Source: Fimbriimonadaceae bacterium (GTDB lineage: Bacteria; Armatimonadota; Fimbriimonadia; Fimbriimonadales; Fimbriimonadaceae). Taken from it: 64,000 bases of DNA. The DNA is taken from positions 372,001-436,000 of the forward strand of contig JAHBTB010000001.1 of assembly GCA_019638795.1 (NCBI GenBank), given 5' to 3'. The translations under genes and the position numbers were made by a program. This document shows, piece by piece, positions 12,387-52,855 of this stretch; the stretch's first letter is position 1; each line of letters begins with the position of its first letter. A model generated the notes under the pieces. It did no database searches. It was not told the DNA's origin and worked only from the letters and a program-made list of their open reading frames with translations.

Positions 12387-12414
12387 TTGGACCGCCGGAC
12401 GCCACAGGTATCCT
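12387..12414 (+). promoter_or_regulatory. Candidate sigma-70-type promoter of lpdA
   Basis: TTGGAC (12387-12392), a 16-base spacer and TATCCT (12409-12414) give a plausible -35/-10 pair. Transcription would start near 12421, leaving a leader of about 43 bases that contains AAGGA before ATG 12464. The divergent interval 12278-12463 also contains three TTGACC/TTGGAC-like elements; nothing else is recognised there. Confidence 0.5.
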
Positions 12415-12463: not shown

Positions 12464-13915
12464 ATGGCCGCGCCCCAGACCCTCGAAAAGCCGCTTTCCA
12501 ACGACAATTTCGACGCTGATGTCGTCGTCATTGGGGCCGGGCCCGGCGGTTATGTCACGGCGATCCGGTGCGCCCAGCTTGGGGCGCGGGTCACCTGCAT
12601 CGAGAAGGAGTACCTCGGTGGCACCTGCCTCAACTGGGGGTGTATCCCGAGCAAGGCGATGATCGCCAGTGTCGAGCGGATGCACGACGTCAACCACGCC
12701 GGCGACTTCGGCGTCAACCTTCCCAAGGGCGACGTCACGATGGACTTCGAGAAGATGATGGCCCGCAAGGAGAAGATCGTCCAGACCCAGCGCGGAGGGG
12801 TCGGCTATCTCTTCAAGAAGAACAAGGTCACCCACGTCGAGGGCTTCGCCAAGTTCCTCGACCAGCACACTGTGGAGGTCGAGAAGGACGGCAAGAAGAC
12901 CAAGGTCCGGGGGAAGAACTTCATCCTCGCCATGGGCTCGTCGGTCATCTACCTGCCGATCAACGGCCTCAAGGGCGGGCGCGACGAGGGCGTCTGGACC
13001 AGTGACGACGCCGTCACCGCCCCGTTTGTGCCGAAGCGGATGCTCGTCGTCGGCGGGGGTGCCGTCGGCGTCGAGTTCAGCTACGTATTCAATGGACTTG
13101 GCACCAAGGTCACCCTCGTCGAGATGCTCCCCAACCTCATCCCGATGATGGACGAAGAGCTGGGCAAGGAACTCGGCAAGCTTTTGGCCCGGCAGGGCGT
13201 CGACGTCCGCACCGGGGCGATGACCGAAAAGGTCGAGAAAACCAAGAACGGGTGGAAGTGCACGGTCAACCAGTCCGGCAAGGTCGAAGAGATCGAGGTG
13301 GACGTCATCTTGCTCGGCGTCGGCCGCAAGGCGAACACCGACGGGATGAACCTGGAAAAGGTCGGCGTCAAGCTGCACAAGCGCGGGGTCGAGGTCGTCG
13401 ACGACACCTTGAAGACCCACGCCCCCAACGTCTGGGCGATCGGCGACGTGACCGGCCGGATCCAACTCGCCCACACCGCCATGTACGAGGGACAGGTCGT
13501 CGCCGCCAACATCGTGCAGGGCAAGAGCGAGAAGGCCGACTACAAGGCGGTGCCCAACTGCGTCTACACCGTGCCCGAGGTGGCGGGGGTCGGGTTGACC
13601 GAGTCGGAGGCGATCGGCAAAGGATACGAGGTGAAGATCGGCAAGGCCCAGTTCCGCCCGTTCGGCAAGCCGATGGCGACGGGCCACCAAGACGGCTTCG
13701 TCAAGGTCGTCATCGACAAGAAGTACGGCGAAGTGCTCGGCCTGCACATGATCGGCGCCCACGTGACCGACATGGTCCACGAGGGGGTCGTCGCCCTCAA
13801 CCTCGAAGCCACTCTTGAGTCCATGGTGACCAGCATCCATGCCCACCCGACGATGTCGGAGGCGATCCTCGAGGCCTTTGAGGACGCCCATGGGCTGGCG
13901 ATCCACAAGGCGTAA
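12464..13915 (+). CDS. lpdA: Dihydrolipoamide dehydrogenase (E3)
   Basis: FAD-dependent E3 component that reoxidises dihydrolipoyl groups of 2-oxo acid dehydrogenase or glycine cleavage complexes with NAD+. The 483-residue protein has the FAD-binding VVVIGAGPGGYVTAI, the redox disulfide GGTCLNWGCIPSKA (C55 and C60), the NAD-binding VVGGGAVGVEFSYVF, the second FAD motif WAIGDVTGRIQLAH, and the C-terminal HAHPTMSEAILEA that supplies the active-site His-Glu pair. ATG 12464 with AAGGA upstream is chosen over an in-frame ATG at 12434. A lone E2 gene is at 55040-56314. Confidence 0.95.
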   Translation: MAAPQTLEKPLSNDNFDADVVVIGAGPGGYVTAIRCAQLGARVTCIEKEYLGGTCLNWGCIPSKAMIASVERMHDVNHAGDFGVNLPKGDVTMDFEKMMARKEKIVQTQRGGVGYLFKKNKVTHVEGFAKFLDQHTVEVEKDGKKTKVRGKNFILAMGSSVIYLPINGLKGGRDEGVWTSDDAVTAPFVPKRMLVVGGGAVGVEFSYVFNGLGTKVTLVEMLPNLIPMMDEELGKELGKLLARQGVDVRTGAMTEKVEKTKNGWKCTVNQSGKVEEIEVDVILLGVGRKANTDGMNLEKVGVKLHKRGVEVVDDTLKTHAPNVWAIGDVTGRIQLAHTAMYEGQVVAANIVQGKSEKADYKAVPNCVYTVPEVAGVGLTESEAIGKGYEVKIGKAQFRPFGKPMATGHQDGFVKVVIDKKYGEVLGLHMIGAHVTDMVHEGVVALNLEATLESMVTSIHAHPTMSEAILEAFEDAHGLAIHKA

Positions 13916-39300: not shown

Positions 39301-40200
39301 CTACTTGCGAGGGTGAGACCGTCGGTAGTCGTCGGCCACGGCTTCGGTGTCCAGTTGGGTGTAGACCTGGGTGGTGTCGATGCTGGCGTGGCCGAGCAGT
39401 TCTTGGACGGCCCGGAGGTCGGCCCCACCCTTCACGAGGTGGACGGCATACGTATGTCGCAGCGTGTGGGGGCTGGCATGCTTTTCGACCCCACTCCGGA
39501 CCAGCGACCGCCGGACCACGTGGTAGGCGGACTGGCGCGTCATGGGGCGGCCATTTGGCCCGATAAAGACTTCGCTGACCGCCTTCTTCACGAGCACGGG
39601 CCGCCCTTCCGCCAAGTACCTCTGCAGCCACGCCAGCGTCTCGGCGGGAAGCGGCACCCACCGCACCTTGCCCCGCTTGCCCAGGACCATGACGGCCTGG
39701 TCTTCGGGCCTGACCTCGCCCACGCGGAGTCCGCAGGCCTCGCTGACCCGCAGGCCACCGCCATAGACAAGCTCCAAGAACGCCCGGTCGCGTAACGAGA
39801 CCGCCGTGTCGCCGGGGGCCGTGGCCAGGATCTTCTCCATGTCATCCCAAGAAAGGGCCTTGGGAAGCCGCTTGGGTGACCGGATTCCCGCGGCCGACGG
39901 CAGCGGCCCCTCAGGTCCCCGCCCTTCGCGCTTCAACCACTTGAGCAGCGATCGGAGGCTGCTGACCCGCCGGCGGGCCGTGGCCGGAGCGACCGGCGGG
40001 GCCAGGGAGGCCTGGTAGCGGAAGAGGTCGTCAGGCCCCAAGTCGGCCCAAGAGCCCTTGCCCAAGCGCACAAAGAACCCTTCGGCCACGGCCAAGTCGT
40101 TCGTGTAGGCCGTCAGGGTGTGCCGGCTGGCGCCGCGCTCGAACTCGAGGTGGTCGAGGAAGCGGCGGGATTCCCTTCGATAAGCGTTTTCCTTTTCCAC
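39301..40200 (-). CDS. xerD: Tyrosine recombinase XerC/XerD
   Basis: A 299-residue site-specific recombinase resembling XerC/XerD, which resolve chromosome dimers at dif. The N-terminal SAM-like domain (FLDHLEFERGASRHTLTAY) is followed by the catalytic domain with R151 (GGLRVSEACGL), Lys in GKRGKVR, H245 and R248 (HTLRHT), H271 (LGHASIDTTQ) and nucleophile Y280. The core is complete and of normal length. There are no phage or integron neighbours, so a housekeeping role is likely. Its first 88 bases overlap the C-terminal coding region of the upstream GT39 gene. Confidence 0.9.
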   Translation of the reverse strand: MEKENAYRRESRRFLDHLEFERGASRHTLTAYTNDLAVAEGFFVRLGKGSWADLGPDDLFRYQASLAPPVAPATARRRVSSLRSLLKWLKREGRGPEGPLPSAAGIRSPKRLPKALSWDDMEKILATAPGDTAVSLRDRAFLELVYGGGLRVSEACGLRVGEVRPEDQAVMVLGKRGKVRWVPLPAETLAWLQRYLAEGRPVLVKKAVSEVFIGPNGRPMTRQSAYHVVRRSLVRSGVEKHASPHTLRHTYAVHLVKGGADLRAVQELLGHASIDTTQVYTQLDTEAVADDYRRSHPRK

Positions 40201-49611: not shown

Positions 49612-50136
49612 TTGAGTGACCTTATGACGACCGCGATCCTCGCCCTGGGGTTGGCATCAGCGTTGGCCCAAGACCACACACCGACCATCACGGTGGCCCC
49701 TGCGAAGGGCAACATCGTCGCCGGAGGGCTGGCCCGCATAGACGTGAAAGTCAGTATCAAGGACGGCCTCCACGCCTACCAAAACCCGCCTTCGCAGGAC
49801 TATATGATCCCGCTGTCCATTGAGGCAGGGGACGGCACCGTCGTCGAAAAGGTCAAGTATCCCAAGGGGACCATGGCCGCAGTCGGCGGCGAGACGGAGA
49901 AAGCCGCGGTCTACGAAGGTGACGTCGTCGTGCCCGTCTACGTGCGACTTGGCAACCAGGCAGGCCACACCTCGGTGAAGCTGAAGGTCACGATCCAGCA
50001 GTGCACAGACGCCAACTGCTTCCCCCCGGAGTCCAAGGCGATTGAGTTCGGTTTGGACGCTGGCCCGGCGTCTGGCTCGGCGGTGTCACGCAAGGCGGCC
50101 GACATCGCCGTCTTGGCCATGCGGAGGCCCCATTGA
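49612..50136 (+). CDS. Exported DsbD-alpha-like (DsbC/DsbD N-terminal) domain protein
   Basis: A 174-residue exported protein with signal MSDLMTTAILALGLASALAQ. The remainder is an immunoglobulin-like DsbD N-terminal domain: VAPAKGNIVAGGLARIDVKV, KDGLHAYQNPPSQDYMIPLS and the redox pair QQCTDANCFPPES, matching DsbD-alpha's CxxxxC. TTG 49612 has AGGGAG 5 bases upstream; ATG 49624 is an alternative. It overlaps dsbD by TTGA. Because dsbD has its own alpha domain, this looks like an extra electron donor or acceptor. Confidence 0.8.
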   Translation: MSDLMTTAILALGLASALAQDHTPTITVAPAKGNIVAGGLARIDVKVSIKDGLHAYQNPPSQDYMIPLSIEAGDGTVVEKVKYPKGTMAAVGGETEKAAVYEGDVVVPVYVRLGNQAGHTSVKLKVTIQQCTDANCFPPESKAIEFGLDAGPASGSAVSRKAADIAVLAMRRPH

Positions 50137-52043
50137 GGCGCCTGCTCTTCGTCTTTGTCCTCGTCGCCCTGGCCCTCGTGTCGCTGGCCCAAGCTCCCGA
50201 GCGGGTCAAGTGGTCGGCCAAGTTTTCGCGTGACGACGTCCGGCCCGGCGAACACGCCCAGCTGCTGATCACCGCCGAGACGGCCGAGGGTTGGCACATC
50301 TACGACGCCCTACGCGACGGTGACTGGACCAAGACCACCTTCACCATCGCCGACGGCCAACCGTGGAAGGCCGACGGGCCGCCGGTCCAACCCAAGCCGA
50401 CGACGAAGTTTGACCAGGGATTCCAAGTCGACGTCGACACCTTCGAAGGCACCGTGGTCTTTGCCCTCCCGGTGAGTCTTGATACTGGGGCCAGCGGGTC
50501 GGGGACGCTCAAGGTCAGCACAAAGAGCCAGGCCTGCGACGCCCGGAGTTGTGACATGCCCCGGACCGTCGACCTTGAGGTGCCTTACACCGTCGCCTCC
50601 GGCCCTGTCCGTCCTGAGTTCACCGCGGCGATCACCACCGTCCCGCCCCAGTCGGGGCTCAAGTCTGGCGCACCGGAACCGGCCAAGGCGGCTTCGGACG
50701 CCCCGGTCGACCCGACCACCGCGAGCGTCAACAAGGCAAAGCAGTCGGGCCTCCTCGCCTACATGGGGCTTGCGTTCTCGGCGGGCCTGCTCGCCCTCCT
50801 CACACCCTGCGTCTGGCCGATGGTGCCGATCACAGTCAGCTTCTTCAGCAAAAAGAAAGGGGACGACAAGAAGGGCAACCTGAAGGGCGCGGTCTGGTAC
50901 TGCGTCGGCATCATGGGGACCTTCACATTGCTTGGGCTGCTGACGACCCTCGCGTTCGGCGCCAGTGGCATCCAACGCCTTGCCGCGAACCCGTGGGTGA
51001 ACCTGGGCCTCGGCGTCCTCTTCGTCGTGCTTGCCCTGAACCTGTTCGGCGTCTTCGAGATCGTCATCCCCCAGAAGTTCGTCAACAAGGCCCAGCAAGG
51101 CACGAAAGCGGGCGGCATCGCCGGCCCGTTGCTCATGGGCCTCACGTTCAGCCTGACCAGCTTCACCTGCACAGTGCCGTTCGTGGGCACCCTGCTCGTC
51201 TCCGCCACGACCGGCGACATCGTGTGGCCGGTGCTCGGCATGCTGGCGTTCAGCTTGGCCTTCGCCCTGCCGTTCTTCTTCCTTGCCATGTTCCCGGGCT
51301 ACCTGGCCAAACTGCCACGGTCGGGCGCATGGCTCGTGTCGGTCAAGGCCTACATGGGCTTCTTGGAGCTGGCCGCCGCCCTGAAGTTCTTCTCCAACAT
51401 CGACGTCACGGTCGCCAAGCAGCCGCTCGGCTTGTTGCCCCAAGAGGTCTTCCTTTCGGTGTGGGCGACGATCTTCGTCCTCGCTTCCCTTTACCTGCTC
51501 GGCTGGATCCACTTGGCCACCGATCCGGGCGAGGTGAAGGCGGGATGGTCAAGGCGGCTGTTCGGCATCGCCAACATTGCCGTGGCCGTCTACCTGCTGG
51601 CCGCCATCGGTGGCAAGGCGACGCTGGGGCCGTTGACTGGCTTCTTGCCCGCCTATCAGGTCGGCAAGAGTGACGCGGCCCTGACATGGCATGAAAAGCT
51701 GGAGCCGGCGGTCACCGAAGCTGAAGGCGAGGGCAAGTTAGTCTTTATCAATTTTACCGGACAAACCTGCACGAATTGCCGAGTCATGGAGAAGACGGTG
51801 TTCCCTCGGCCGGAAGTCAAGGACGCCCTGAAGGGGTTTGCCCGGGCGGAGCTCTTCACTGACCGTGAGTTCCCTGAGGACCAGGCGAACGCCAAGCTCC
51901 GCGAAGAACTGACGAAGAGCTCGACAAACCCGGTCTACGTTGTGATGACCCCGGACCGCAAGGTCCTCGGTGTCCTGCCCGGCCTTTCGTCACCCGAGGA
52001 GTTCTTGGGCTTCATCCAGAAAGCCAAGGGAGCCGCGAACTGA
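50133..52043 (+). CDS. dsbD: Thiol:disulfide interchange protein DsbD
   Basis: Membrane protein that carries electrons from cytoplasmic thioredoxin to periplasmic disulfide isomerases or cytochrome maturation. The 636-residue protein has a signal peptide, an alpha domain with KSQACDARSCDMP, eight membrane helices with TPCVWPMVPI and SFTCTVPFVG as the central Cys pair, and a C-terminal thioredoxin-like gamma domain with GQTCTNCRVMEKTVF. All three redox Cys pairs are present. TTG 50133 overlaps the upstream stop (TTGA); kdsA overlaps the end by CTGA. Confidence 0.93.
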   Translation: MRRLLFVFVLVALALVSLAQAPERVKWSAKFSRDDVRPGEHAQLLITAETAEGWHIYDALRDGDWTKTTFTIADGQPWKADGPPVQPKPTTKFDQGFQVDVDTFEGTVVFALPVSLDTGASGSGTLKVSTKSQACDARSCDMPRTVDLEVPYTVASGPVRPEFTAAITTVPPQSGLKSGAPEPAKAASDAPVDPTTASVNKAKQSGLLAYMGLAFSAGLLALLTPCVWPMVPITVSFFSKKKGDDKKGNLKGAVWYCVGIMGTFTLLGLLTTLAFGASGIQRLAANPWVNLGLGVLFVVLALNLFGVFEIVIPQKFVNKAQQGTKAGGIAGPLLMGLTFSLTSFTCTVPFVGTLLVSATTGDIVWPVLGMLAFSLAFALPFFFLAMFPGYLAKLPRSGAWLVSVKAYMGFLELAAALKFFSNIDVTVAKQPLGLLPQEVFLSVWATIFVLASLYLLGWIHLATDPGEVKAGWSRRLFGIANIAVAVYLLAAIGGKATLGPLTGFLPAYQVGKSDAALTWHEKLEPAVTEAEGEGKLVFINFTGQTCTNCRVMEKTVFPRPEVKDALKGFARAELFTDREFPEDQANAKLREELTKSSTNPVYVVMTPDRKVLGVLPGLSSPEEFLGFIQKAKGAAN

Positions 52044-52855
52044 AGACCTTTTCGGTCAGCGGGGTCACCTTCGGCGGTCCCCAAATGGTGGTCATCGGGG
52101 GGCCATGCCTCGCCGAGTCGGCCGAGTTATGCCACCAGGTGTGCGGCTCACTGCAGGACATTTGCGCCGACCTTGGGTTCGGCTATGTTTTCAAGGCTAG
52201 CTTTGATAAAGCCAATCGGACATCGGCCTCTTCGGTACGGGGGGCGGGGATCGACGCCGGCCTGTCTGTCCTCGCCGACGTCAAAGAGCAGTTCGGTGTC
52301 CCGGTGACCACTGACGTCCACCTTCCGGAGCAGTGCGCCGTGGCGGCCTCCGTCGTCGACATCCTCCAGATCCCCGCGTTCTTGTGCCGCCAGAGCGACT
52401 TGCTGGAGGCCGCTGCCGAAACTGGTCGTCCGGTAAACGTCAAGAAGGGACAGTTCCTCGCTCCGTGGGACACCAAGAACATCGTGGAGAAGTTGGAGTC
52501 TTATCACGCCCAAGGGATTCTCCTGACCGAACGCGGCACCAGCTTTGGCTACAACACCTTGGTCGTCGACATGCCTGGCCTGGAGACGATGCGCGCCTAT
52601 GGCCATCCGGTGTGCTTCGACGCCACCCATTCGGCCCAACGCCCCGGCGGGGCAGGTTCGTCGACCGGCGGCGTCCGTGAATCGGTGCCTGCCATGGCCC
52701 GGGCCGCGGTGGCCGTGGGGATCGACGCCCTGTTCCTGGAAGTCCATCCCGACCCGGCAAACGCGCTCAGCGACGCCGCGACCCAGTGGCCCCTCGACCG
52801 AGCCAGGGAGTTGTTGACTTCCTTGGCCAGGGTCAGGGCCGCGGTCAGCGAGTGA
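52040..52855 (+). CDS. kdsA: 3-deoxy-8-phosphooctulonate (KDO 8-P) synthase, CTG start
   Basis: Condenses arabinose 5-phosphate with PEP to make KDO 8-P for lipopolysaccharide. The 271-residue protein has GGPCLAESAEL (Cys of the metal-dependent class), FKASFDKANRTS, QIPAFLCRQSDLL, NVKKGQFLAPWDTKNIVEKL, TERGTSFGYN and CFDATHSAQRPGG. The homologous N-terminus KTFSVSGVTFGG precedes the first ATG (52085) and begins at CTG 52040, within CTGA overlapping the dsbD stop. AAGGGAG is centred ~10 bases upstream with a 7-base gap. The enzyme appears to be a class II, metal-dependent KdsA. Confidence 0.93.
   Translation: MKTFSVSGVTFGGPQMVVIGGPCLAESAELCHQVCGSLQDICADLGFGYVFKASFDKANRTSASSVRGAGIDAGLSVLADVKEQFGVPVTTDVHLPEQCAVAASVVDILQIPAFLCRQSDLLEAAAETGRPVNVKKGQFLAPWDTKNIVEKLESYHAQGILLTERGTSFGYNTLVVDMPGLETMRAYGHPVCFDATHSAQRPGGAGSSTGGVRESVPAMARAAVAVGIDALFLEVHPDPANALSDAATQWPLDRARELLTSLARVRAAVSE

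Follow-up and report, generated by a model that had tools for sequence, protein, structure and literature searches.

A very probable CTG start for kdsA in a CTGA overlap with dsbD in a Fimbriimonadaceae bacterium and its sister species

The dsbD/kdsA junction

The window analysed here is a 64,000-nucleotide stretch of the 2.7 Mb genome of a Fimbriimonadaceae bacterium (G000), and all coordinates are positions within it. Four co-directional genes lie in the order sdhB-like gene, DsbD_N-domain gene, dsbD, and kdsA, with kdsA last. The dsbD gene (50133–52043, + strand) encodes DsbD_N, DsbD_TM, and thioredoxin-like domains (Pfam PF11412, PF02683, and PF13899); the small separate gene directly before it (49624–50136) has a DsbD_N domain too. 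The start of dsbD is a TTG at 50133, in a TTGA overlap with the preceding gene, and this TTG is retained in G001, the only other genome of the genus compared. With the putative start of kdsA described below, dsbD and kdsA would present two successive non-ATG overlap starts.

The kdsA gene (3-deoxy-8-phosphooctulonate synthase; 52040–52855, + strand) comprises 271 codons when read from CTG and ends at the TGA at 52853–52855. Its product scored above the cut-offs of two equivalog models, NF003543 (382.9 bits, cut-off 242) and TIGR01362 (359.8 bits, cut-off 314), and below that of a third, NF009109 (276.6 vs 457). The TIM-barrel is intact, as judged from the translation and the invariant columns, including the GPC, KASFDKANR, VNVKKGQF, and DATHS regions, which we take to be the KdsA motif regions, and its structure model had a mean pLDDT of 92.4.

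The CTG of kdsA occupies 52040–52042 and the TGA of dsbD 52041–52043, so that the two genes share four bases of the same strand (CTGA, 52040–52043, +), which is the −4 geometry. A first-pass annotation of this DNA had proposed this overlap, together with an AAGGGAG 7 bases ahead of the CTG; both are present, the Shine-Dalgarno-like AAGGGAG within the C-terminal codons of dsbD at 52026–52032 (+ strand), one base earlier than the 52027 from which that annotation had counted. The kdsA frame translates as L-KTFSVSGVTFGGPQ-M(52085)-VVIGGPC, and its first in-frame ATG, codon 16 (52085–52087, + strand), is the gene start in a list of open reading frames limited to ATG, GTG, and TTG, and hence the candidate rival or secondary start. 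The annotation had found no ATG, GTG, or TTG nearby upstream, and we found that none occurs in this frame anywhere from the upstream in-frame stop, at codon −54, to ATG 52085. Only two codons between that stop and codon 16 are one base off ATG, namely CTG (codon 1) and AAG (codon 2).

Conservation of the start position and of the N-terminal segment

The junction was compared across 96 kdsA loci, of which 76 come from the family (the source genome and 75 more) and 20 from other families of the order. The family search covered 85 genomes, of which 8 gave no match at E≤1e-50 and one (G107) has a sequence that begins inside the gene, leaving 76; among 24 order-level genomes, G052, G054, G057, and G060 lacked the N-terminal part and were dropped, leaving 20. 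Columns of the start region were anchored on the GPC motif, and a start was assigned at column 1 or, failing that, at the nearest canonical codon in codons −5 to 5.

The sister genome G001, whose KdsA is 89% identical, has the junction ...AAAGCCAAGGGAGCGGCGAA-CTG-AAGACC..., with an identical CTGA and an identical AAGGGAG, although its DNA is only 80% identical to that of the source over 221 bases and differs at 22.8% of 1,110 bases round the junction. Beyond the genus, most loci have another NTG in the CTG column, which holds an NTG in 65 of the 96 (GTG in 26, ATG in 22, TTG in 15, and CTG in 2). Starts assigned by the rule to 94 loci were ATG in 40, GTG in 33, TTG in 19, and CTG in 2, with G064 and G071 unassigned. 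Many relatives have the identical four-base junction as GTGA, TTGA, or ATGA, and in 43 of 94 loci the NTGA takes in the stop codon of an upstream frame that shows some dsbD match (31 of them at E≤1e-5), some of these 43 matches spanning the DsbD_N part only. An ATG, GTG, or TTG lies within codons −6 to 5 in 92 of the 96 loci, and a long KdsA is thus the rule in the order; the four loci that lack one all have a CTGA junction. Of the 96, the source genome alone lacks any canonical codon over the stretch that runs from the upstream stop through codon 14; G001 has two that are absent from the source, a TTG at −21 (22 codons ahead of its CTG) and a GTG at 9. Each of the 80 best among 423 further KdsA stretches, which again take in the G001 record and other genomes from the earlier count, has at least one canonical codon no later than codon 14, a count of presence and not of use.

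The tree places both CTG loci in a single clade (support 100/99); the nearest row, G002, has ATG and is attached by a weakly supported fork (97/39). In total, the tree requires 35 changes of start label; it comes from a single search, with 34 of 93 inner branches weak and the bootstrap not settled. As a counterpoint to the agreement between G000 and G001, the evidence for CTG comes from two genomes and one evolutionary event. Extra nucleotide conservation round the CTG between them is unsupported; the 34-base windows with at most one mismatch lie about 500 bases into kdsA.

Codons 2–15 (52043–52084, + strand) are the segment that would be lost with an ATG start. Between G000 and G001 they differ at 3, 2, and 9 sites in codon positions 1, 2, and 3, respectively, corresponding to 6 silent, 4 replacement, and 4 identical codons with no indel or stop, and by this substitution pattern they evolve as coding sequence between both members of the genus. 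The residues are also conserved across the 96 loci, with Gly12 in 95, V, I, F, or L at column 11 in all, and V at column 6 in 60, which bears out the first-pass claim that the family N-terminus is encoded upstream of ATG 52085. This segment aligns to the solved KdsA 3fs2, and the structure model has strands at residues 4–6 and 9–11 (pLDDT about 94) ahead of a first barrel strand at 17–21; residues 2–15 are thus confidently modelled as a hairpin ahead of the barrel. The relatives check that the first-pass annotation had suggested favored its reading, giving a CTGA and an AAGGGAG kept in the sister genome, an NTG in most loci, and conserved first residues.

Initiation at CTG and its alternatives

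Pairing with the anti-Shine-Dalgarno sequence, which matches the organism's own 16S 3' end (GGATCACCTCCTTA), was computed over the 20 bases upstream of each candidate start. In the source genome it was −7.6 kcal/mol for the CTG vs −6.2 for ATG16, and in G001 −8.0 vs −5.5. The pairing ahead of ATG16 comes from a GGCGG. Of 4000 20-mers drawn at random from the window, 10.75% pair at −7.6 or better and 33% at −5.5 or better, and the site of the CTG is unexceptional among relatives, since −7.6 or better is found in 16 of 94 loci. The earlier statement that ATG 52085 has no comparable ribosome site therefore stands insofar as its site is the weaker one, but not as regards absence, as −6.2 kcal/mol is still some pairing. 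Median pairing by start codon was −3.9 for ATG, −4.8 for GTG, −5.7 for TTG, and −7.8 for CTG. The correlation of site strength with a weaker start (Spearman −0.20) had p 0.052 across the 92 loci without CTG and p 0.021 when CTG was included, and when restricted to the 41 overlapping non-CTG loci the same trend had p 0.17, kinship being uncorrected throughout; that the ribosome site strengthens as the start codon weakens is thus a hint only. The CTG region is base-paired in the fold predicted round the start, a fold no stronger than that of shuffled sequences (z −0.85). An altered initiator tRNA as the cause is unsupported, as the one match in the genome to the canonical GGG/CCC anticodon arm is a tRNA-Met. 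IF3 is present in the source genome.

Taken with the sister genome, the NTG column, and the coding character of the N-terminus, these data favor the reading first proposed, and we conclude that kdsA very probably starts at CTG in both the source bacterium and its sister species. Whether or not ATG 52085 is also used, we put the probability that full-length KdsA starts at CTG 52040 at about 0.86. We infer that a ribosome ending dsbD at TGA 52041–52043, or a 30S subunit recruited by AAGGGAG, would meet the overlapping CUG in its P site and initiate KdsA using the ordinary initiator tRNA and its fMet, to yield fMet-KTFSVSGVTFGGPQ-MVVIGGPC, a protein that would begin (f)M-KTF and contain TFSVSGVTFGGPQ; relatives would initiate likewise at GTGA, TTGA, or ATGA. 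If the ancestral codon was TTG, its change to CTG would have been silent in dsbD (Asn AAT to AAC). The weak codon is plausibly sufficient because of the close ribosome site and the stop/start overlap. Nevertheless, CUG complexes are described as less stable in E. coli in the part of PMC11497404 available, and the available text of PMC11983097 cites Hecht et al. for about 10-fold less product from CTG than from TTG, so the yield of KdsA should be low unless coupling helps.

Methionine occurs at the codon 16 column in 2 of the 96 loci, both of them the CTG genomes, which is as expected if ATG16 were used. It may accordingly be asked whether the CTG supplies full-length KdsA at a low rate while the genus-specific ATG16 tops up the supply with a short form, a reading that overlaps the preferred one, which requires only that the CTG be used. 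The presence of CTG1 and ATG16 together in two genomes and nowhere else among the 96 loci, as well as some pairing sequence ahead of ATG16, would fit two starts. So would the existence of naturally short enzymes: in all 14 Aquificota-type loci checked (L062, L071, L074–L076, L079, L087, L089, L091, L096, L100, L104, L106, and L107) the start can lie no earlier than codon 8 to 15 and is in most cases an ATG at codon 13, which indicates that KdsA works without the hairpin in Aquificota. However, the co-occurrence may be due to chance, as it amounts to one event in the phylogeny and a Leu-to-Met replacement is conservative, and the short form would lack a hairpin that the whole order conserves. 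We therefore regard two functional starts as unlikely, although not negligibly so.

Initiation at ATG 52085 alone, which would make this KdsA a short enzyme like that of Aquificota and the upstream codons a relic of a longer gene, draws on much of the same evidence. The solved short chain 1fwn, which we take to be KdsA from Aquifex, aligns from query residue 16 with three residues preceding, and a short KdsA is natural in Aquificota, so structure alone does not decide against a short form; ATG16 is present in both members of the genus, with no Met at this column in any of the remaining 94 loci, and the GGCGG provides pairing. Against this, codons 2–15 still look like coding sequence free of indels and stops, canonical codons lie at −6 to 5 in nearly all loci of the order, and the pairing at ATG16 is weaker than that at the CTG and in G001 no better than that reached by a third of random 20-mers. 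We consider ATG-only initiation quite improbable. Apart from this question, Aquificota-type KdsA begin just ahead of the first barrel strand.

Because kdsA lies in the −1 frame of dsbD, a frameshift fusion from dsbD could also be imagined, as could other non-ATG initiation upstream, but we hold either to be very improbable: from the upstream stop to the CTG there is no other codon one base off ATG, no X_XXY_YYZ slippery heptamer was found by reading just before the dsbD stop, and upstream gene or spacing differs in relatives (an sdhB-like gene in G064 and G071; a dsbD-like stop set back by 7 to 28 bases in G002, G040, G042, and G044), which indicates that no fusion is conserved. Finally, a base-call or assembly error, by which a real GTG or TTG, one base away and commoner as starts of relatives, was read as CTG, is scarcely credible, as the identical CTG in the sister genome despite 22.8% base differences argues against it. 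The description of this junction as a well-supported CTG case is thus upheld at the level of sequence, with an additional start at ATG 52085 still conceivable.

Known CTG starts and other CTGA junctions

CTG starts as such are already known, and kdsA appears to be a well-supported native addition to them. That they are rare, as the first-pass annotation had noted, agrees with 20 annotated cases in nearly 85,000 genes (Hecht et al., cited in the available part of PMC11983097) and, by our own sums from the part of PMC5622118 at hand, with 4 changes to CUG reconstructed across 68,906 ancestral starts. In the available portions of the respective articles, a mycobacterial selection showed no enrichment of CTG as a leadered start (0.03%; PMC4633059), the CUG of Caulobacter dnaA gave a toeprint yet was unused in vivo (PMC8443254), and the CTG start of E. 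coli ano is given as less certain (PMC5960689). The further remark that such starts are usually mis-annotated fits the precedent of RepFIB repA of F-like plasmids, for which we draw on the accessible text of PMC11983097. Like kdsA, repA has a CTG with a ribosome site, and it is mostly annotated at a GTG 14 codons downstream, the next canonical codon of kdsA being 15 downstream; unlike kdsA, its start was proved by N-terminal analysis and a CTG to CTC mutation. It is a plasmid replication gene, and that text mentions no overlap with an upstream stop.

Other near-cognate chromosomal starts have been mapped experimentally, including the CTG of Deinococcus deserti rpsL, a different gene from kdsA (PMC5960689), and the AUU or AUA of infC, ccpN, and cvfC1, which differ from kdsA in codon and for which a regulatory role has been proposed (PMC13009471), again as given in the parts of these sources available. 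Also close to the present case are the other Fimbriimonadales kdsA genes with GTGA, TTGA, or ATGA junctions, which start at the same column or a few codons off, with the same four-base overlap and often a dsbD-like gene upstream, and differ in the canonical first base of the start codon. The geometry is also that of −4 termination-reinitiation pairs, although the dsbD/kdsA coupling is itself a prediction. According to the available text of PMC10666635, the −4 overlap (ATGA or GTGA) is the commonest configuration among gene pairs counted in one genome; ATGA and GTGA are named there, and the word CUG is absent from the main text. Among the literature matches listed, a set covering few subscription journals, no title concerned CTGA junctions.

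The remaining two loci that lack a nearby canonical codon, G064 (L164) and G071 (L161), form a separate clade (support 100/100). In both, an sdhB-like gene ends GTC-TGA and the kdsA frame has a CTG at codon −2, again giving CTGA. A competing open ATG lies five codons upstream, with pairing of −1.5/−0.7 there vs −4.3 kcal/mol at the CTG, and this sdhB-CTGA-kdsA arrangement is possibly a second, independent CTG start. In L126 (G028), the start column holds an ATA whose ATAA overlaps an sdhB-like gene, and the sole canonical codon in the vicinity, a GTG six codons ahead of it, pairs poorly (−0.7 vs −5.1).

These junctions raise the speculative possibility, which we regard as rather doubtful, that the NTGA overlap itself relaxes start choice, a first-position C being tolerated because the terminating ribosome is already on the next start. 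CTGA would then be a fourth, systematically unseen junction class that arose at least twice in the order, as dsbD-CTGA-kdsA in this genus and as sdhB-CTGA-kdsA in G064 and G071, and gene callers limited to ATG, GTG, and TTG would mis-start the genes concerned. In the present case, such a gene finder would drop KdsA residues 1–15, and the rarity of CTG starts may partly reflect this blindness of callers that accept three codons. Because ATGA, GTGA, and TTGA all occur at kdsA in the same order, they form a natural series with CTGA, which at a single gene could measure how far termination-reinitiation relaxes start choice. The kdsA case concerns a core enzyme of the lipopolysaccharide pathway and is common to two species, but by itself it alters 15 residues of one annotation; its general interest is modest and would be greater if CTGA junctions prove common.

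Within the window, a scan found CTGA joining two open GC3-rich frames at 9 candidate sites, kdsA among them, and 3 of the other 8 were read (40116 on the − strand, 12413, and 27258). At 40116 (−), the XerC/D-like gene plainly extends upstream, as the N-terminal Pfam match of the form cut at the CTG starts at profile position 20. At 12413, a dihydrolipoamide-dehydrogenase-like gene has an ATG at 12464 ahead of its domains, so the CTG is unneeded; these two were rejected, and 27258 stays a candidate.

Two observations concern the presence of kdsA itself. G029 and G092, of the same family (1.5 Mb, 97% complete), had no KdsA match at E≤1e-50, the only match in G029 (E 1e-22) lying in the range of DAHP-synthase-like paralogues, and Kdo synthesis may have been lost there with genome reduction. 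In G012, a second match to the last 42 aligned KdsA residues (C23:46332–46457; 71% identity) lies about 1.2 kb downstream of the full kdsA and is possibly a partial duplicate of it.
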